A stretch of 24,401 nt of DNA, taken from IMG/VR virus record IMGVR_UViG_3300048768_000191, positions 1 to 24,401 of that record, one strand, 5' to 3'. The position numbers and the translations under genes were made by a program. This DNA comes from a virus. The notes beneath the pieces were generated by a model. That model saw only the letters and a list, made by a program, of their open reading frames with translations. It made no database searches and was not told where the DNA came from. Below, piece after piece: positions 3 to 14,170 of the stretch; position 1 is the first letter of the stretch, and the number at the start of each line of letters is the position of its first letter.

Positions 3-1577
3 AAAATATGGTCTAAAAATTTAGAATATTTAAGGGATTGTTTAATTAATGTTCCTGATCTTAATTTTGTTATATCAAAAGAAGATTTACATCAATGTAT
101 TCTGGGGTGGTTGGCAGGAGATGGTAGCATAGATTTAAATGGAAGATTTGTAATAAATCATAGTTTAGTTCAATTGTCTTATTTATACTTAAAAAGAAAG
201 ATTTTATATAGTTATTTGTCTAATGTGGTAACTGTCCCAGCTCAACATTTTTCCATGTCTAATGATAAAATATATATCGGTGGAAAAGAACAATTGGGTA
301 TATCTTGTTCCGGCCTAAAAGAATATACAGTTTATTTAAAAAAAGATGGTTCTAAGGATTATGAAAAAATTTTTTCAGAATTAACGGATTTGGGGTGGGC
401 ATGCTATTTTATGGATGACGGATCTTTTTTTAGTGGAAAAACTGTTATATCAATGAGCTCCAGTAATGCTTCATATTTTGAAAATAAATATAATTTTGGT
501 TTAAAGTCATTTTTAGATGATCATTCATTGGAAGTTAAAAAGATAGATCCAAAGTATATTATACCTTGCATGTATGATAAAGTAAGGTTATGCTCTGAAG
601 TTGGTTCTTTTTGGAAAGAATATCTTCCTGAGTTGTTTGAAGTATCTATAAATAATGATTTTGATCTTTGTTTTATAAATAGATATGTGTTAGCAAAAAA
701 TGAGAGCTTATTAAATAGGGCTACAGAATATTATATAAAAAGAGGTTTTCCATATTTTAATGTAAATGAGGACTATTTAAAAAAAGAATATACTAAGTTA
801 TCAGAACTTAGTACACAGTATATCTGGAAGGACAAAAGCACTATTAAATACATAGATGTCGGCAATAAAATATTTAAAAATTTTATGCCACATATGGTAG
901 AATCAAGCTATAGAGGAGTTTCCCCGTATGAAACATTTAATAACTTTTCTTCTTTAAGATCAGCCCTCGTGTATACACTTAAGTCTAATAAAACAATTTT
1001 GCCAGATTATTTGTTTAATAATCTTGTGTATTTTAATGGGGGAGTTTCTGGATTCCCTTGCGGTATAGCAAAAGCTATTGTAGAGAAATATACTGCTCCA
1101 GGAAATATGGTTGTAGACCCTTGTGCTGGATGGGGTGGCCGTTTATTAGGCACTGTATCATCTGATAGAAGATATTTTGGATTTGAGCCGTGGGATAAAA
1201 CAGCTATTTGTTTAAATAAAATTATTGATTATTATGGTTTAAACGATAAGGCAGAGGTTATTTGTTCTGATTTTGATATAAAAAAAGCGCCTAAATCCTG
1301 CGATTTAATATTGACATCACCACCTTATATAGATCTAGAAGTTTATGGGAAACCTATGAATAAAGAAGCGTGGATCAATCTTATAAATAGTATTTTTGTT
1401 TATGCAGAGAAGTCTTTAAATTTTAATGGTTTTTTTCTTTTAAATATCCCGAGATATTTAAAAGAATACCTACCAAAAACTTCACTTCTTGAAAAAGAGA
1501 CTATTTTTTGGTTTACTTCTTCAAGAAAAAAAGATGTTTCAAGTGCAGAAATCCTCATAGTGTTTCAGAAGCCATAA
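3..1577 (+). CDS. LAGLIDADG homing endonuclease fused to DNA methyltransferase (5' partial)
   Basis: The reading frame is open from the left edge, so the true start lies outside the window; 524 residues are visible. The first LAGLIDADG-type motif is GWLAGDGSIDLNG (bases 105-143) and the second is LGWACYFMDDGSF (around 391-429), about 95 residues apart, as in two-motif homing endonucleases. The last ~200 residues form a SAM-dependent DNA methyltransferase: motif X/I is PGNMVVDPCAGWGGRLLG (about 1099-1152), a motif II-like FGFEPWDKT follows, and the catalytic motif IV is LTSPPY (about 1312-1329). The TSPPY tetrad fits N4-cytosine or N6-adenine enzymes. I see no intein C-terminal His-Asn plus Cys/Ser/Thr junction between the halves, so this reads as a fusion rather than an intein host. 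It precedes the structural operon and is probably a mobile intruder. Confidence is high in both domains and lower in how they cooperate. Confidence 0.8.
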   Translation, partial: KIWSKNLEYLRDCLINVPDLNFVISKEDLHQCILGWLAGDGSIDLNGRFVINHSLVQLSYLYLKRKILYSYLSNVVTVPAQHFSMSNDKIYIGGKEQLGISCSGLKEYTVYLKKDGSKDYEKIFSELTDLGWACYFMDDGSFFSGKTVISMSSSNASYFENKYNFGLKSFLDDHSLEVKKIDPKYIIPCMYDKVRLCSEVGSFWKEYLPELFEVSINNDFDLCFINRYVLAKNESLLNRATEYYIKRGFPYFNVNEDYLKKEYTKLSELSTQYIWKDKSTIKYIDVGNKIFKNFMPHMVESSYRGVSPYETFNNFSSLRSALVYTLKSNKTILPDYLFNNLVYFNGGVSGFPCGIAKAIVEKYTAPGNMVVDPCAGWGGRLLGTVSSDRRYFGFEPWDKTAICLNKIIDYYGLNDKAEVICSDFDIKKAPKSCDLILTSPPYIDLEVYGKPMNKEAWINLINSIFVYAEKSLNFNGFFLLNIPRYLKEYLPKTSLLEKETIFWFTSSRKKDVSSAEILIVFQKP

Positions 1578-1639: not shown

Positions 1640-1939
1640 ATGGCCATAGAATTAGAATTTTTTATAGTAACAGGGCCTATTACAGGGCCTGTTTCAGATA
1701 TAGTTTTGAAGCACCCACCATCAACAGGTCCCAACAGTACTTTTGATATAGCTGTTGATCCTATAGGTGGGCCAGCTCAGGTTTTAGGTATAGACTATGG
1801 CATTACTGGATCTCTCCTAACAGGTATCCTTACGTGTAATTTGGAAGATTCAGATATTCCATCTATTCATCATATATACCAAGGATTGGGTGAAACGGGT
1901 CCTATTTTAAGAGTACTTTATAATTACGATACCCCCTAA
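1640..1939 (+). CDS. Small Thr-Gly-rich virion protein
   Basis: A 99-residue protein with a clear AGGAGG ribosome site at 1623-1628. It is rich in Thr-Gly turns (VTGPITGP, STGP, GITG, LTGI, GETGP) and ends in a beta pattern, VLGIDYGITG followed by ILRVLYNYDTP. A similar pattern occurs in a domain inserted in the next protein (GTDYTVNNGG followed by GDILRIMYSD). It contains no signal peptide or membrane segment. Its stop codon is one base from the start of the beta-helix gene, which suggests translational coupling and a shared complex. I infer a small tail-fibre or baseplate-associated beta-sandwich protein; no specific family is recognised. Confidence 0.6.
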   Translation: MAIELEFFIVTGPITGPVSDIVLKHPPSTGPNSTFDIAVDPIGGPAQVLGIDYGITGSLLTGILTCNLEDSDIPSIHHIYQGLGETGPILRVLYNYDTP

Positions 1940-1940
1940 T

Positions 1941-4358
1941 ATGTCTGAAAACAAATATTTAATCTATGTTGATGGGATTAGCGGTAATGATACTAATTCT
2001 GGGGAGGTATTGTCCCCAGTTAAGACATTACAGCACGCTTATGATATTGCTACTAATGGCTCTCTTATAGTCCTTCAAGCAAATGCATCCTCATACGGTG
2101 ATCTAATAATAACAAAAAATATTTCTTTAATGAGCGCCCATGGGATACGAGCAGAAGTTGGTCAACTTACTGTCCAGAATGCACAGGTTTTTACTTCATT
2201 TTTGGATTGTGTAAGTACGACAGGTACAGGAATATCCATAAATAATTCTGGAATAGATAAGACAGGTTGCCTGCAAGTTAATAACTGTAATTTTGGTAAC
2301 ATAAATTTTCCTATAATATTAAATAATTGCAATTATGCCAGTATACATAGAAATAAGTTTCAGACGTATTCTCAAGCCGTTCAGATAAATGGTTGCTCTG
2401 AGATTACAGCCAGCGCTAATACTTTCTATGATGGACCACAAGCTTTTGTTGTCCTCAATACAGGTTATTTGGATATTTATAATAATACACTTTTTGGTAA
2501 ATTATCAATACCTCCAGTAGGTGAAACGAATATTAATCTTAGAGTTATTTATGTAACTATTAGTAATAGTATACTTTCTTCAAAATATATAGATCTTCCA
2601 TCATATGCAGCGGCTAATGAATCAGGTTATAATGTTGCTGTAAATACTGTGAACGGAACTTCATTTGATTATGGGACCGACTATACAGTTAATAATGGCG
2701 GAAGGACAGTATCTTGGAACGGTTTAAACTTAGTACAGGAATTACATGCTGGTGATATACTAAGGATAATGTATAGTGATGCAGAAACTACAAATACTGG
2801 TGAAATTATATATGCTATTGCAGGTAACCCAAAGAGCAGGATAGATTCTAACAATATTAATGATGGATTAATAGGGGTCCATTTTATAGGTGATTTGAGG
2901 ATACGGTATAATAACTTTTTTGGTACATATACCGGTATCATAGGAGTTTCATCTGATTACACGGGTAATATTAACATAGACCCAAACTACGTTAATAAAC
3001 CTTTACAAAATTTTGAATTAAATCCTAATTCTCCTGATATATACGCTGCTGATCCTTATAGAAGTGGCCAAATTTTACAAGAGTTGGGGGTAGGTATTAC
3101 TGGTGGCGGGTTTACTGGTATCTTTGCTGTAGAAAGAGAAGGGGTAGCTCCTTTTGATAGGAATATTGATAAAGACGGAAGACATCGATTTACTTTAAAA
3201 AATCGTGATGATATCGGAGCCTACGAGTATCCTGATACTGGTATTAACGCTGACCCTTACACTTATATTTTTGAAGATGGTTATGATATAAATGTGCCAG
3301 GCTCTTATACAGGCCCCTATGGGACTCTTGATAGAGGTTTTCAGGACCCTAAGGATATAATAGTCAATACAAATATCTTGATGTATGAAGGGTATACGGG
3401 GCCTTTAGATCAAGGAGCTACTGGTATCCAGTATGGAAGATATTCTTCCGATGATTTAAATTTAAGCAGTGATCAGCTGCTAATAGGAAAAGAAAATAAA
3501 AGCAGTGTAATTTATATATATCCATCTTATCCGAGTTGTGGTATTACAGGTTTATTTGTAGGACCAACACCGCCAGCTGATGAGATGTCAGGAGATACTG
3601 GCAGTATTACAAATCCTTTTTCAGACATAAAAGATGCCATTAATGCATACGGATCAAGTACGGGGGTCATTTTTGTTTATCCCTCATTTTATTCTTCTTT
3701 CAAGGGATCTCCAGGGATAGAGATAGTCGGGTTGCCGAAGATTAATAATATCAATTTAGATAAAATGATTTATAACACGTATGCTGCTGTAGGTTGGACC
3801 GGTGCTAATTTTGCTGTGTTTGATGACGAATATATATCCTTTAATGGATCAGACGATATTGCGTCTCTTTTCCAGATGCTTAATAGTTTTAGTATACGGT
3901 TTGATATGCAAGTAATAATGGACAAATTAGAGACTAAAGTCTTTAATGATTCAAATTTTGTTTCTGTTTCAAAATCAGGTTCTACTTTAACTTTTAAGTA
4001 TTATACAGGTGGTATGACTTACACCGCTAATGCAGTAAGCACAGATAATTCATACAGACTTTTTATAGATGTTAAAGATGATAAGGCCGTTGTGAGAGTA
4101 AAAGGATTTTCAACGGATATAGAAAGAGATATTAATTTTGTTTCTGGATACACAGGCCCATGGTCTATGGATTATATCTATACGTATAATTCTTTACCAG
4201 GATGGACTGGTATCGTAACAAATTTTTTAATAGAGTCTGATAAAATATACATGCCTGATTTGAGTATAATTGGATATACAGGTACTGCTACCGAAAGAAA
4301 AGTTTATGGTATAGTTGGAGAGACTGGGTTAAATGATTGGTATGAGGCGAACATATAA
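1941..4358 (+). CDS. Right-handed beta-helix tail spike/fibre-like structural protein
   Basis: An 805-residue protein. Residues 8-45 match the DUF1565-type opening of parallel beta-helix proteins (YVDGISGNDTNSG, then SPVKTLQHAYDIA). Residues ~60-200 and ~286-370 are Asn-rich short rungs (NNCNFGN, LNNCNYASIHRNKF). Residues 411-430 give the usual closing motif of such helices, with DIGAYEY at 424-430. A beta-sandwich-like module (~215-280) interrupts the rungs. A second DUF1565-like opening is at ~537-580 (ITNPFSDIKDAINAYG). The last ~190 residues look like a jelly-roll, lectin-like fold (SFSIRFDMQV, SYRLFIDVKDD). About twenty Thr-Gly turns are scattered along it. It has no Shine-Dalgarno site of its own and starts one base after the previous stop; its own stop overlaps the next ATG. 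It is probably a fibre, spike or baseplate-decorating protein; an enzymatic (lyase) role is possible but no catalytic residues are recognised. Confidence 0.65.
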   Translation: MSENKYLIYVDGISGNDTNSGEVLSPVKTLQHAYDIATNGSLIVLQANASSYGDLIITKNISLMSAHGIRAEVGQLTVQNAQVFTSFLDCVSTTGTGISINNSGIDKTGCLQVNNCNFGNINFPIILNNCNYASIHRNKFQTYSQAVQINGCSEITASANTFYDGPQAFVVLNTGYLDIYNNTLFGKLSIPPVGETNINLRVIYVTISNSILSSKYIDLPSYAAANESGYNVAVNTVNGTSFDYGTDYTVNNGGRTVSWNGLNLVQELHAGDILRIMYSDAETTNTGEIIYAIAGNPKSRIDSNNINDGLIGVHFIGDLRIRYNNFFGTYTGIIGVSSDYTGNINIDPNYVNKPLQNFELNPNSPDIYAADPYRSGQILQELGVGITGGGFTGIFAVEREGVAPFDRNIDKDGRHRFTLKNRDDIGAYEYPDTGINADPYTYIFEDGYDINVPGSYTGPYGTLDRGFQDPKDIIVNTNILMYEGYTGPLDQGATGIQYGRYSSDDLNLSSDQLLIGKENKSSVIYIYPSYPSCGITGLFVGPTPPADEMSGDTGSITNPFSDIKDAINAYGSSTGVIFVYPSFYSSFKGSPGIEIVGLPKINNINLDKMIYNTYAAVGWTGANFAVFDDEYISFNGSDDIASLFQMLNSFSIRFDMQVIMDKLETKVFNDSNFVSVSKSGSTLTFKYYTGGMTYTANAVSTDNSYRLFIDVKDDKAVVRVKGFSTDIERDINFVSGYTGPWSMDYIYTYNSLPGWTGIVTNFLIESDKIYMPDLSIIGYTGTATERKVYGIVGETGLNDWYEANI

Positions 4359-7075
4359 TGGAATACAATTTTAATAGACCTGATTTTCCTTTAAAATATA
4401 GGTCAGGAAACGATACTCCACCATCGTTACCTCTTGCTCCTCGTAATGTTAATGTTACGAGTCCTTTTTTAATTGGGATCATCGATATACGCTGGGATAA
4501 TCCGGCTATTTATGCTGAGAATAGTGGACTGCAAATATTAGGGGTTAATGTTTATAAGTCATATAACTCTCCCGAAGGTCCTTATACACAAATAAACACG
4601 ACTCCTATAGGAGCTCTATACTGTAGGGATCAAACCCAAGAGATACAAATAACTGAAGATCCTATGCAAGGTGGGAGATTTATAGCAGGGACTACAGCCA
4701 GAGGAGAATGGGTAGCTAAAACTTTTCATAGACCTATTATTATTCCAGGGACTAATGGTCAGATAGCTAACAATTGGGCCCATGTAAGAGTAGAGGTTAA
4801 AGAAACAGCCTTGGATGATTTTGTTACTGTACCAGCTTTTAAAGTTATTGGAGAACAAGGGCAGATTTACTTAATAAATTCTAAAGTTTATAATCACGAT
4901 ACTAATAGGTTGGATGATCCTGTGCTGCCTCAGATTGATAAAGGTGGGGAAGTTAGGATCACCTATACGTATATAAACAACTGGAACCAGACAGATTTAT
5001 TCAGGAAAATTTATTATAAAGTTACAACAGTTGCTTTTGATAATACTTGTACTGGTGGTACAAAAGAGACCCCGCTTAATCAAGTAGAAGCTTTCAGTCT
5101 TTATGACATGGAGAAGATAGATTGGATGTGGGCTGAAGCTATTAGAAGGAATAAATGGATTTTGGAGCAGGGTGGGGAAAGAGTAAAGTTGTTTATACGT
5201 AAGTGGTCCGGTTATTTGTGTCCATGTTGGGATGATCAATACAGGCAGGCTAAGGCTGATCATGAGCTCTGTTTTGCCCCCGGAACACCCGTACGTACTA
5301 TTAAAGGTTGGGTAGATATAGATAAAATTAAAGTAGGCGATTTTGTGTTATCTTCAGACGGTTTATATCATAAAGTCTTAAAAACATTTGAAAGGGATTT
5401 TAAAGGGGATTTAATATCTATATACCCCTCTGTTTCAACACGGCCTATATTATCTACGCCAAAACACCCTTATTTAGTTTTAAGGGGTAGTCATAATAGA
5501 AAAATAGGTTGTGGGCCTAAGTGTAATAGCTTTATACAAGATGGTGATGGGTTCCCAACTGGCAATCCAGATGTTAAGTTATTGCCAAGCGGTAAATGGT
5601 GGGCTCGTGCTCAAGTGGGAGAAAAGAGAGGCCAGGGTCGTAAAGCATTGGGTACTTTTAAAACTAAAGAAGAAGCTATTAATGCTATATATGAGTATAG
5701 AATTAAAACATATAAACCTGCACATGCCTTGCAATGGGACAGTGCTGAAAATATTAATAAAAAAGATTGGGTTACTACACAATGGTTTAAAGAAACACAA
5801 GATATTTCAGAAATTAACGTTCCTAATAAATATTTTAAAAATATTAATTACGGACCTAAAAGAATAGGTCCAACAAAATATATAGTAGATGAAGATTTTC
5901 TATGGATGATAGGTATGTATCTAGCTGAAGGTAGCCCTGGAAGTAGAAGTATTATTTTTTCTTTGCATGTAAATGAAATAGAGTATCAAAATAAGTTAAT
6001 TAATATATTTAAAAAATACGGATTTAAAGCATATGTTTTTAAAAGGAATGGATTGGGAGTTGTTGTATCAGTTACAAGTACAATACTTTCAGAATGGTTC
6101 CCTGAATGGTTAGGTTCTAAATGTGATAAAAAGCACATACCAGAAGAATTTATGTATTTACCTAAACATAAATTGTGGGCTCTTATACAAGGTATTTATG
6201 ATGGAGACGGTTCTAAGACAGATCACGAAATAGGACAAACATCAGAATATTTATCTTTACAACTTGTTGAACTTTTACATCGTGTAGGTGAACAACCTTT
6301 AGTTAGGCAGCAAATTTCTAAAGTATTAACACCCAAGGGTAATGTCAGAAAAATATGCTATTGTATTAACTGGGCTGAAGATAATTTTTATCATGTTAAT
6401 CGTAAAGGAAGATGGGTTTTTAAAAGTAATGTGCTATCTAAAATTAAAAAAGTTTCTAAGGTGTCTTATTCTGGAAAAGTACATAATTTAGAAGTTGAAG
6501 GGGATCCTACATATATTGTTAATGGAGTTACAACCCATAATTGTATGGGCACTGGGTACATAGGTGGCTATGAAGGGCCTTACGACATAATTGTTGCTCC
6601 TCCGGAGGCCGAGAAGACTGTCAATTTGTTTGATGTTGGATTACACGTCAATTACAATTGGAGTACTTGGACGGGCCCTTATCCGCTTCTTACAGACCGT
6701 GATTTTGTTGTTCGAGGGAATAATGATAGATTCTCTATAGCTCATATTAATGCACAAGGTCAGAGAGGGGCTATATTCCAGCAGCATTTTGAGTTGGCCC
6801 AGTTGGATCAGCAGGATATACGATATAAAGTTCCTATTACTGGAGGAGAGGTTAGTGTGCCTCCAAGCTATAATCCGTATCATACTTCAAAGCCTACTGA
6901 TGCAAGTCCTGTAATTGATGACAAACCGACAAGACCTGAGCAGTATCAATATAAAGGGCGTACAGTTACGTTCGAGAACATCGTTATGGTTTTGTTATTT
7001 TCTTTAATAGGTATTAATGGTTTGTTTAGTGTTGTAGAAAATGTAATCAAATCTGTTGGTCAGAATATAATATGA
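4358..7075 (+). CDS. FnIII-type virion structural protein interrupted by an intein
   Basis: A 905-residue precursor; removing intein residues 305-728 leaves a 481-residue mature protein. The start overlaps the previous stop (TAATG), implying coupling. Residues ~24-90 resemble a fibronectin III domain (RWDNPAIY, GVNVYKSYNSPEGPYTQIN). Residues ~121-209 match the beta module also seen in the sheath and the 14284 gene (RPIIIPGTNG ... EVRITYTYINN). The mature junction joins ADHEL to CMGTGYIGGYEGPYD, rebuilding a Cys-rich segment (CPC ... CMGTG) that resembles a small metal-binding or disulfide knuckle. Downstream is WTGPYPLLTDRDFVVRGNNDRF, split here only by my reading. The C-terminus has a hydrophobic stretch (IVMVLLFSLIGINGLFSVV). 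It is likely a neck, baseplate or fibre-attachment protein; the exact role is not determined. Confidence 0.6.
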   Translation: MEYNFNRPDFPLKYRSGNDTPPSLPLAPRNVNVTSPFLIGIIDIRWDNPAIYAENSGLQILGVNVYKSYNSPEGPYTQINTTPIGALYCRDQTQEIQITEDPMQGGRFIAGTTARGEWVAKTFHRPIIIPGTNGQIANNWAHVRVEVKETALDDFVTVPAFKVIGEQGQIYLINSKVYNHDTNRLDDPVLPQIDKGGEVRITYTYINNWNQTDLFRKIYYKVTTVAFDNTCTGGTKETPLNQVEAFSLYDMEKIDWMWAEAIRRNKWILEQGGERVKLFIRKWSGYLCPCWDDQYRQAKADHELCFAPGTPVRTIKGWVDIDKIKVGDFVLSSDGLYHKVLKTFERDFKGDLISIYPSVSTRPILSTPKHPYLVLRGSHNRKIGCGPKCNSFIQDGDGFPTGNPDVKLLPSGKWWARAQVGEKRGQGRKALGTFKTKEEAINAIYEYRIKTYKPAHALQWDSAENINKKDWVTTQWFKETQDISEINVPNKYFKNINYGPKRIGPTKYIVDEDFLWMIGMYLAEGSPGSRSIIFSLHVNEIEYQNKLINIFKKYGFKAYVFKRNGLGVVVSVTSTILSEWFPEWLGSKCDKKHIPEEFMYLPKHKLWALIQGIYDGDGSKTDHEIGQTSEYLSLQLVELLHRVGEQPLVRQQISKVLTPKGNVRKICYCINWAEDNFYHVNRKGRWVFKSNVLSKIKKVSKVSYSGKVHNLEVEGDPTYIVNGVTTHNCMGTGYIGGYEGPYDIIVAPPEAEKTVNLFDVGLHVNYNWSTWTGPYPLLTDRDFVVRGNNDRFSIAHINAQGQRGAIFQQHFELAQLDQQDIRYKVPITGGEVSVPPSYNPYHTSKPTDASPVIDDKPTRPEQYQYKGRTVTFENIVMVLLFSLIGINGLFSVVENVIKSVGQNII
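5270..6541 (+). mobile_element. Intein with AP2-like domain and LAGLIDADG endonuclease
   Basis: In-frame 424-residue intein (host residues 305-728). Block A starts at Cys305 (CFAPGTPVRTIKGWVDIDKI). Block B is STPKHPYLVL, with the usual T-x-x-H. Block F/G is HNLEVEGDPTYIVNG followed by VTTHN, and the +1 residue is Cys. The two endonuclease helices are WMIGMYLAEGS (~517-527) and LIQGIYDGDGS (~610-620), each with an acidic residue, so nuclease activity is plausible. Between block B and the first helix lies an AP2-like DNA-binding segment at residues ~409-448 (GKWWARAQV ... KALGTFKTKEEAINAIYEYR). All splicing residues needed for class 1 splicing (Cys1, block B His, penultimate His, terminal Asn, Cys+1) are visible. 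The insertion lies directly in the Cys-x-Gly-Thr-Gly motif of the host protein, a typical conserved-site choice. Confidence 0.9.
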
Positions 7076-12233: not shown

Positions 12234-12382
12234 ATTTTCCTATAATATACGGGTAAGGAAAATACCTGTATCAAACCTATAGCTTGTGGAATAATAAGAA
12301 TATGATTTAGAGCCAAGAGTCAAAGATAGTAATACCACAAGCTTACTATTTTTGTAGGTGTTTCCTCACCGTCTTGGCTTTA
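12234..12382 (+). ncRNA. Candidate structured RNA leader with two interleaved stem pairs
   Basis: The 202-base gap before the zinc-repeat endonuclease is full of complementary segments. ATTTTCCT (12234-12241) pairs with AGGAAAAT (12256-12263), and this interleaves with 12247-12255 pairing to 12263-12271 (nine pairs, one G-U). AGCTTGTGG (12281-12289) pairs perfectly with CCACAAGCT (12335-12343). This interleaves with AGCCAAGA (12311-12318, extendable to 12308) pairing with TCTTGGCT (12372-12379, extendable to 12382). ATAGTAA (12326-12332) can pair with TTACTAT (12343-12349), and GGTG with CACC (12357-12370). Interleaved order means pseudoknots. A TATAAT box at 12241-12246 overlaps it. No known RNA class was matched. 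It may be a stand-alone RNA or a 5' leader controlling the endonuclease. Confidence 0.4.
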
Positions 12383-12400
12383 TTTTTAAGAAAAGATTGT

Positions 12401-14170
12401 ATGAAAAAACTTACACAGGATGAATTTATAGAAAAAGCCACGTCTGTTCACGGGGATAAATATGATTATTCTACAGTTAGGTACACTAATGCTATTACTA
12501 AAGTTTTGATTATATGTAAAATTCATGGTGAATTTTTTCAGAGCCCTAATAGTCATTTAAGTGGATGTGGGTGCTTTTTATGTAATAAAATTAAACAATC
12601 AATGAATATATATGAATTTATTAAAAAAGCTGTAAAAATTCATGGAAACAAATATGATTATTCAGGAGTTCAATATGTAAATGTTGCTACAAAAATATAC
12701 GTTGTGTGTAGAATTCATGGGGGATTTTATCAGACTCCTTCAAGTCATTTGTGTGGCCATGGCTGTCCTGAATGTGGTAGGTTGCAAAATATAAGTAAAC
12801 AAATGCATGGAAATAAAGAAAATTTTATAAAAAAATCCATATTCATGCACGGAGAAAGGTATGATTATTCTAAAGTTAACTATGTTAATATTAAAACAAA
12901 GGTATGTATTATTTGTAAGATCCATGGGGAATTTTTGCAGGATTTTAATAATCATTTAAAAGGTAGGGGTTGCCCAGTGTGTGGTAAATTGTCAAGGAGT
13001 ATTAAAAATACTTTAGATAAAAATGAATTCATAACGAAAGCAGTATTGATTCATGGTTATAAATATGATTATTCAAAAGTTGAATATATTAGTACTAAAG
13101 ATAAAATATGTGTTATCTGTAAGATTCATGGGGATTTTTTGCAGGCTCCTTGTCAGCATTTAAGAGGCTCAGGATGTCCTGCATGTAGTAAATTAAATGC
13201 TAGCTCTATAATTAGATTAACTAAAGAAGAGTTTATTATGAAGTCTAAAATTTCACATGGGATAAATATGTATGATTATTCAAAAGTAGAATATAAAGAT
13301 TTAAAAACAAAAATTTATATTATATGTAAAATTCATGGAAGTTTTTATCAGAGACCATCCGATCATTTATTAGGATGTGGTTGTCCTAAATGTGCTTTGG
13401 ACAAAAAAAGATTGTCTACCGAAGAGTTTATTAAGCGAGCTATAGCAATTCATGGAAAAGATAAATATGATTATTCAAATATTAAATATGTTGATAGTTC
13501 TACTAAAATATGTTTTACTTGTAAATTACATGGAAATTTTTACCAAAAACCTATTAATCACTTAAAGGGATATGGATGCCCTACTTGTACAAAAATAAGT
13601 ATAACGGAAAGAAGTACCTCAACTAAACAGAAGTTTATAGAAAGAGCTATTAAGATACATGGTGAAGGAAAATATGATTATTCAAAAGTAAAATATATTA
13701 ATAATCATGTAAAAATATGTATTATATGTAAAATACACGGTGAATTCTACCAAAAGCCAAATAATCATTTATCAGGGCATGGGTGTGAAAATTGCACGAT
13801 TATTTCTTCTGGAGAAAAGTTTATAAAAAAGTGGTTAGTGTCCAACAATGTAGAGTATAAACAACAACAGACATATTCAAATTTAAGGGGATTTAATAAT
13901 AAAAAACTTTTAAAGTTTGATTTTTATGTCCCTATTAAAAATTTGCTCGTAGAGTTTGATGGGGAGCAGCATTATAGACCAGTACAATTTAAAGGTATGT
14001 CTAAAGAAAAAGCTATTAATCAGTTTAAAAGAACGCAATATAATGATGTTATTAAAAATAAGTATTGTTTAGACAATAATATACCCTTATTAAGAATATC
14101 CTATAAAGATTTTAAACGTCTACCTGAAATATTGTCTGAAAGTATTCTTAAAGTAAAATTAGCAGCATAA
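12401..14170 (+). CDS. Seven-repeat zinc-finger (DUF723-type) PD-(D/E)XK-like endonuclease
   Basis: The ATG at 12401 (MKKLTQDEFIEKATSVHG) is chosen over an in-frame TTG at 12374 because the first repeat begins right after it; the protein is then 589 residues. Seven tandem units of ~62-66 residues follow the pattern F-x-x-K-A-x-x-x-HG-x-KYDYS, then C-K-x-HG-x-F-x-Q, then HL-x-G-x-GC-x-x-C, each supplying Cys and His ligands. This matches DUF723-type repeats. The last ~120 residues form a Vsr-like or PD-(D/E)XK nuclease: GEKFIKKWL, LKFDFYVP, LLVEFDGEQHY, NDVIKNKYCLDNNIPLLRIS. These proteins are thought to be free-standing homing endonucleases. It is flanked by a folded leader and a strong terminator, forming a self-contained mobile cassette. 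Its codons look more A/T-rich than those of the neighbouring tail genes. Confidence 0.75.
   Translation: MKKLTQDEFIEKATSVHGDKYDYSTVRYTNAITKVLIICKIHGEFFQSPNSHLSGCGCFLCNKIKQSMNIYEFIKKAVKIHGNKYDYSGVQYVNVATKIYVVCRIHGGFYQTPSSHLCGHGCPECGRLQNISKQMHGNKENFIKKSIFMHGERYDYSKVNYVNIKTKVCIICKIHGEFLQDFNNHLKGRGCPVCGKLSRSIKNTLDKNEFITKAVLIHGYKYDYSKVEYISTKDKICVICKIHGDFLQAPCQHLRGSGCPACSKLNASSIIRLTKEEFIMKSKISHGINMYDYSKVEYKDLKTKIYIICKIHGSFYQRPSDHLLGCGCPKCALDKKRLSTEEFIKRAIAIHGKDKYDYSNIKYVDSSTKICFTCKLHGNFYQKPINHLKGYGCPTCTKISITERSTSTKQKFIERAIKIHGEGKYDYSKVKYINNHVKICIICKIHGEFYQKPNNHLSGHGCENCTIISSGEKFIKKWLVSNNVEYKQQQTYSNLRGFNNKKLLKFDFYVPIKNLLVEFDGEQHYRPVQFKGMSKEKAINQFKRTQYNDVIKNKYCLDNNIPLLRISYKDFKRLPEILSESILKVKLAA

Follow-up and report, generated by a model that had tools for sequence, protein, structure and literature searches.

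The window analysed here, by which we mean the whole stretch of DNA under study, is a 24.4-kb viral contig whose left end falls inside a gene. The frame found at positions 3-1577 is open at its 5' end and encodes 524 amino acids, in which a LAGLIDADG nuclease domain is followed by an amino-DNA-methyltransferase. The features of this region, all of them on the plus strand, are as follows.

3..1577, plus strand: 3' part of the fusion gene, open frame; 524 of about 760 codons, judged from the relatives L005, L006, L007 and L099
81..662 (approximate limits), plus strand: LAGLIDADG_2 nuclease domain (Pfam PF03161, I-SceI profile match, phage LAGLIDADG folds)
102-128, plus strand: LAGLIDADG motif 1, LGWLAGDGS (aa 34-42), with the catalytic-type Asp at residue 40
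390-422, plus strand: LAGLIDADG motif 2, LGWACYFMDDG (aa 130-140), with Asp residues 138 and 139
720..1574, plus strand: amino-DNA-methyltransferase region, uninterrupted (Pfam PF01555; alignment to standalone phage methylases)
1116-1151, plus strand: methyltransferase motif I, DPCAGWGGRLLG (aa 372-383); D, G, G, R conserved in 59/59
1314-1328, plus strand: methyltransferase motif IV, TSPPY (aa 438-442); PPY core conserved in 56-58/58
1640..1939, plus strand: conserved small gene of 99 aa next to the fusion and not belonging to it; bounds the variable site on the right

Domains of the fusion protein and its full-length relatives

In the window protein, Pfam returned LAGLIDADG_2 (PF03161) with E=4.6e-6 (27.1 bits versus a cut-off of 25) and N6_N4_Mtase (PF01555) with E=6.9e-6, at 26.6 bits just below its cut-off of 26.7; the latter model fared better, with 39.8 bits, in L005, a relative of full length. 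Both halves were also backed by matches in PHROGs, while in PADLOC the match was to the methyltransferase for the window protein and to both parts for its relative L021. When a profile of the family was compared with the PDB, I-SceI was found with E=3.6e-23 over about 190 positions, and the modification methylase 2zie with E=3.5e-9. The protein thus has the two motifs, the acidic catalytic-type residues and the matching fold of a LAGLIDADG nuclease, together with the motif I, the (S/D/N)PPY motif IV and the Rossmann methyltransferase fold of an N6/N4 amino-DNA-methyltransferase.

Three IMG/VR contigs match residues 1-523 of the window protein at 73, 65 and 51% identity. A fourth full-length relative, L099, encoded on a contig that binning had assigned to an Altiarchaeales MAG, is 52% identical in the methyltransferase part. 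The full-length proteins (L005, L006, L007 and L099) are 758-762 aa long, each encoded by a single ORF, and in all of them about 235 aa of HTH repeats precede the LAGLIDADG domain, which is followed by the methyltransferase. Comparison with these relatives places the start of the window gene, and its HTH array, upstream of the window. With the complete protein present as a single ORF on four contigs independent of the window, the fusion is no product of chance or of a chimeric assembly.

The structure of L005, modelled by AlphaFold with a mean pLDDT of 82, was compared by Foldseek with a viral library, in which it matched phage nucleases with a LAGLIDADG fold as well as viral methyltransferases of the N4-cytosine type. 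Among the top 50 matches listed from the PDB there were methyltransferases and similar folds only, and no nuclease; hence the nuclease assignment rests on the profile match and on the viral library.

The first-pass annotation of this DNA had described LAGLIDADG motifs followed in the same frame by methyltransferase motifs, and both the 3-1577 ORF and the four single-ORF relatives confirm it. It had also stated that no intein splice junction separates the two parts, and this statement holds as well, as neither Hint or intein Pfam matches nor splice blocks are present in the full-length relatives. The leftward extension of the sequence that it had proposed could be made through the relatives, and revealed HTH repeats and no N-terminal intein blocks. 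An intein-borne nuclease was rejected on the same absence of Hint or intein Pfam matches and splice blocks from the full-length proteins. Although a real intein does lie nearby, in the gene at 4358-7075, it is next to impossible that the nuclease is carried by an intein inside the methyltransferase, or that the fusion is an assembly chimera: the relatives have no splice blocks, and many independent contigs carry the identical fusion architecture.

The family and the origin of its parts

We found 72 LAGLIDADG-methyltransferase proteins encoded by single ORFs, 59 of which are non-redundant (near-copies removed), and most of which come from phage contigs. A scan with the methyltransferase profile covered the best 80 of 444 viral loci and 21 genome loci, the viral ones being mostly standalone methyltransferases. 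The fused forms include LAGLIDADG fusions in the huge phage LR745208 and in L021, L022, L057, L072, L094, L099 and L102, as well as fusions of a Vsr-like nuclease to a methyltransferase in L020, L037, L043, L059, L071 and LR756508. The label Vsr-like derives from the Pfam Vsr model for LR756508, from PHROG homing-endonuclease matches for L020 and from shared sequence for the others. Many more fusions were added by an extra scan with a second LAGLIDADG subfamily. In a phage collection of 50,697 records, LR745208 was the sole LAGLIDADG-methyltransferase record found, and it is unannotated; the family may therefore have been overlooked so far.

Several unusual arrangements were observed, namely a tandem pair of LAGLIDADG-methyltransferase genes in L178, a protein with two methyltransferase domains in L166, and a second fusion, from another subfamily (L170), on the contig of L007. 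In L100 (2669-4915), the methyltransferase of the family stands behind an N-terminus that by eye is zinc-ribbon-like and possibly PD-(D/E)XK-like; the Pfam match of this gene is to the methyltransferase only.

Residues of both active sites are strongly conserved. The Asp of LAGLIDADG motif 1 and both Asp residues of motif 2 are present in 59/59 non-redundant fusions; motif 2 was itself one seed of the scan, so that its conservation is partly ascertained, whereas motif 1 was not a seed. The D, G, G and R of methyltransferase motif I are equally invariant (59/59), and motif IV keeps its PPY core in 56-58 of the 58 fusions that cover it. Purifying selection on both domains was indicated by dN/dS, with synonymous sites near saturation and so open to no finer reading. 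The nuclease and methyltransferase parts have correlated histories: the distances between LAGLIDADG domains correlate with those between methyltransferases at r=0.85, a value reached in 0 of 1000 permutations.

How the two parts came together can be judged from standalone enzymes, such as the 330-aa methylase of Vibrio phage 2.058.O, which aligns with the window protein from residue 242 onward. As the match to such standalone methyltransferases, which are about 330 aa long, lies after the LAGLIDADG domain, the HTH-nuclease unit is an N-terminal addition. Insertion of the nuclease within the methyltransferase was ruled out, the methyltransferase being continuous, and the alternative offered in the first-pass annotation, in which the nuclease entered a methyltransferase gene through a permissive linker, finds no support in this family. 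The search that it had recommended, for the methyltransferase without the LAGLIDADG part, showed standalone forms to be common in phages, but the fused forms are also natural. That separate genes are the sole natural form was rejected, as the standalone methyltransferases belong to other clades and the fused forms cluster.

Nuclease and modifier have each been swapped for an unrelated counterpart. In the methyltransferase tree, one clade (SH-aLRT 96, computed by a quick method) mixes the LAGLIDADG fusions L072, L094 and L102 with Vsr-type fusions. A Vsr-type nuclease with DUF7487 repeats is fused to Mom in L122-L124, L217 and L231, and a LAGLIDADG nuclease is fused to Mom in L222, with Mom above the Pfam cut-off in both kinds of protein. 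All four pairings, LAGLIDADG or Vsr-type with methyltransferase or Mom, were thus found as single polypeptides. An AlphaFold model of the Vsr-Mom protein L124 was poor (pLDDT 50, three sequences) and was set aside. On L222, a LAGLIDADG-methyltransferase gene (1-1785) and the LAGLIDADG-Mom gene (2714-4831) adjoin.

The connector locus and its HTH module

In the group to which the window belongs, the fusion gene lies between a head-tail connector gene, a homologue of Tunturi_5 gp319, and the small conserved gene; the window itself shows the right flank only, and the connector flank is known from relatives. Similar small genes are found in the matching place in L120, L121, L122-L124, L126 and L099. 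A scan with the connector gene revealed five contigs that lack the LAGLIDADG-methyltransferase fusion at this locus (L121, L122-L124 and L126). The place of the fusion gene is taken by a gene of the uracil-DNA-glycosylase superfamily in L121 (7943-8647) and by antisense Vsr-Mom genes in L122-L124, and L126 has an empty allele, with no gene between the flanks. Homology at the connector locus breaks close to the gene borders. Over much of the locus L122 and L123 are 95-97% identical, while their nuclease-Mom parts (L122:7892-9970 versus L123:7950-10085) are mostly about 55-70% identical, one edge of the divergent part lying at the connector stop codon. From this pattern we judge the nuclease-Mom part to have been recently exchanged between L122 and L123, which is a Vsr-Mom case. 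Occupancy of the locus thus varies, one allele being empty and the borders sharp, and the only exchange seen there concerns Vsr-Mom occupants. Comparison of empty with filled alleles, at their divergence, yielded no exact homing target. Most members of the wider family sit at sites other than the connector locus.

The connector gene looks split into two ORFs in L006 (1827-4209), L099 (687-2517) and L134 (LR745208; 2121-4495). The breaks look like the work of split-intein-like elements, are accompanied by a nuclease-like ORF or domain and occur at two different positions, and by them the region beside the fusion gene looks like a homing hotspot. Elsewhere in the window, the conserved structural gene at 4358-7075 contains an intein (Hint and intein-splicing Pfam matches), which is found at the same place in L007 and is absent from L005 and L006, and a further gene of the phage homing-endonuclease type (phrog_559, phrog_681, phrog_9084) lies at 12374-14170. 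A DUF7487-repeat gene directly after the fusion in L006 (6639-7349) looks like the remnant of a gene of the Vsr-Mom type. In L099 (5003-7028), genes judged by eye to be IS607-type-recombinase-like and TnpB-like lie between the fusion and its right-hand neighbour.

The HTH that stands first in the window family (GITADRK..PRWIKRQI) is found again C-terminally in the Vsr-Mom proteins L123 (E=7e-11) and L124 (E=2e-10). When 276 loci were searched with an HMM of this module, it was detected in 10 distinct contigs, in all of them at the connector locus; one weak match lay off this locus (L066, E=7e-5). Among 61 Mom loci, which had been fetched independently of the connector or the HTH, six carried the module, all at the connector, as against 0/54 elsewhere. 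Moreover, L217 and L007 have about 178 aa of the HTH array in common (E=2e-39). Simple inheritance in place fails to explain the shared HTH, since the two gene types are oppositely oriented. The simplest reading of these data suggests that the HTH array recognises the connector site, local recombination being another possible source of the shared module.

Proposed function and comparison with known systems

A single protein is predicted, with some probability, to cut DNA at a chosen site and also to mark DNA chemically against such cutting. The reading that we prefer, and to which we would give about an even chance, is that a large tailed phage here encodes, in a free-standing gene, a nuclease that is site-specific and carries its own protection, and that would drive homing or marker exclusion in mixed infections. 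Under this mechanism, the N-terminal HTH array, known from the relatives, would direct the protein to the connector-gene locus, where the LAGLIDADG domain would cut the DNA of co-infecting phages if unmarked. With the resident genome as template, repair of the break would then copy the gene with its flanks across, resulting in homing and marker exclusion. The fused methyltransferase would mark the cleavage site, or one overlapping it, in the producer's DNA, which would be spared through methylation even where the target persists. That dozens of related viruses have such a fusion with exchangeable parts suggests a weapon for overwriting the genes of rivals while sparing one's own. We infer the cutting, the methylation, the blocking of cleavage by methylation, the recognised sequence and the spread by break repair. 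Marker exclusion in mixed infection is known to be caused by the homing endonucleases of phage T4 (PMC2988022). The proposal of the first-pass annotation that a nuclease with its own protective methylase forms a compact mobile unit is therefore the one we favour, at the level of predicted activities; it is backed by the widespread fusion, the conserved active sites, the correlated histories, the exchange of parts and the variable occupancy of the locus. What speaks against such a mechanism is that ordinary homing endonucleases need no methylase, as insertion or sequence divergence already removes their target. Further points against it are that the recent exchange concerns Vsr-Mom occupants, that local recombination could also account for the shared HTH, and that the wider family lies mostly outside the connector locus.

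With rather less confidence, short of an even chance, a whole class of modular self-protecting homing genes of large phages may be proposed, in which a site-naming HTH array, an interchangeable homing-type nuclease and an interchangeable modifier are joined in one polypeptide. If this is true, modification would spare the nuclease the need to disrupt its target through its own insertion, and restriction-modification and homing would be united in one mechanism, with the first LAGLIDADG restriction-type enzyme included.

The main rival explanation is a single-chain restriction-modification enzyme following the logic of Types IIC and IIG, carried as cargo and not as a homing element. Many short sites of the phage would be methylated, unmethylated DNA of the host or of a competitor would be degraded, and the locus would be a permissive cargo spot. 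A nuclease and a methyltransferase in one chain are indeed the Type IIC plan (PMC4081073), and restriction-modification was proposed for the jumbo-phage Mom-nuclease fusions (PMC7824862); furthermore, a uracil-DNA-glycosylase-like gene occurs at the connector locus too, as a cargo spot would hold, and in this set the nuclease is always retained together with the modifier. However, long sites are what LAGLIDADG enzymes are known for, and none has been described in a restriction-modification system (PMC9957025); the HTH module is linked to a single genomic site, and a distinct target-recognition domain such as Type I/IIG enzymes carry was not apparent. On balance we hold such an enzyme to be rather unlikely. 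It seems improbable that a selfish homing endonuclease was merely fused to a phage methyltransferase, with two independent activities and with the methylase countering host restriction. Cases in which a LAGLIDADG or an HNH element has entered a phage methylase gene are known (PMC9957025, PMC11855218), and standalone relatives of this methyltransferase are common in phages; yet the nuclease is here an N-terminal addition and no insertion, and both active sites are kept in 59/59 fusions, whereas hitchhiking nucleases decay (PMC13405050). In addition, the existence of parallel fusions, with a different nuclease or a different modifier, would have to be a coincidence. Some other protein families contain LAGLIDADG folds that no longer cleave, and one could also imagine a site-specific methyltransferase, regulatory or protective, whose inactive nuclease and HTH only bind DNA. 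Conservation of the motif-1 Asp and of both motif-2 Asp residues in 59/59 fusions, and the occurrence of Vsr-type nucleases in the equivalent place, make this highly improbable.

The self-protecting nuclease proposed here has several partial precedents. In jumbo phages, Mom domains are fused to REase-fold nucleases, for which self-protection was proposed (Iyer et al. 2021, PMC7824862). The window gene is similar to them in encoding a single phage polypeptide with a nuclease and a DNA modifier, and the Vsr-Mom occupants of the connector site probably belong to that kind. It differs in having LAGLIDADG and methyltransferase domains, both unrelated to theirs; a Mom-family (GNAT) modifier is not found in the window gene, Mom being present in the occupants L122-L124, and the accessible part of PMC7824862 describes neither a site-linked HTH module nor homing for the Mom-nuclease fusions. 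In actinophages, a LAGLIDADG of 139 aa is inserted within cluster-F methylases such as Taj_79 (nine sequences; PMC9957025), and a restriction role was judged unlikely there, LAGLIDADG being unknown in restriction-modification systems. Taj_79 shares with our fusion a LAGLIDADG and a DNA methylase in one frame with no intein, but the window family, with its 59 non-redundant proteins, represents an N-terminal HTH-LAGLIDADG addition, and no match to the window protein was found among the actinophage records at E 1e-5.

Enzymes of Types IIC and IIG (PMC4081073) likewise combine an N-terminal nuclease with a methyltransferase in one chain; mostly, however, theirs are a PD-(D/E)XK nuclease and a gamma-class NPPY methyltransferase, in contrast to LAGLIDADG and TSPPY in the window gene. 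As these usual classes were tested for and other ones were found, Type IIC membership is not claimed. T4 SegF and SegG (PMC2988022) resemble the window gene in being intergenic in a phage structural region, variably present and members of a homing family of nucleases, but are without a modification domain. I-SceI (PF03161), the closest solved nuclease by profile, is intron-encoded according to its PDB name, and its solved chain of 235 aa is the nuclease alone. A search of the literature, REBASE and subscription papers excepted, turned up no family of LAGLIDADG-methyltransferases with a homing or restriction role other than these precedents. The LAGLIDADG-methyltransferase family, the LAGLIDADG-Mom fusion, the matrix of exchanges and the site-linked HTH module appear to be new, no description of them having come up in that search. 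LAGLIDADG nucleases have so far been seen as homing enzymes standing outside restriction-modification (PMC9957025). A broad phage family which joins them to modifiers, in which nuclease and modifier are both replaceable and a DNA-binding module is linked to a single genomic site, makes the evolutionary link between homing and restriction-modification directly testable, and points to natural site-specific nucleases with a predicted built-in protection.
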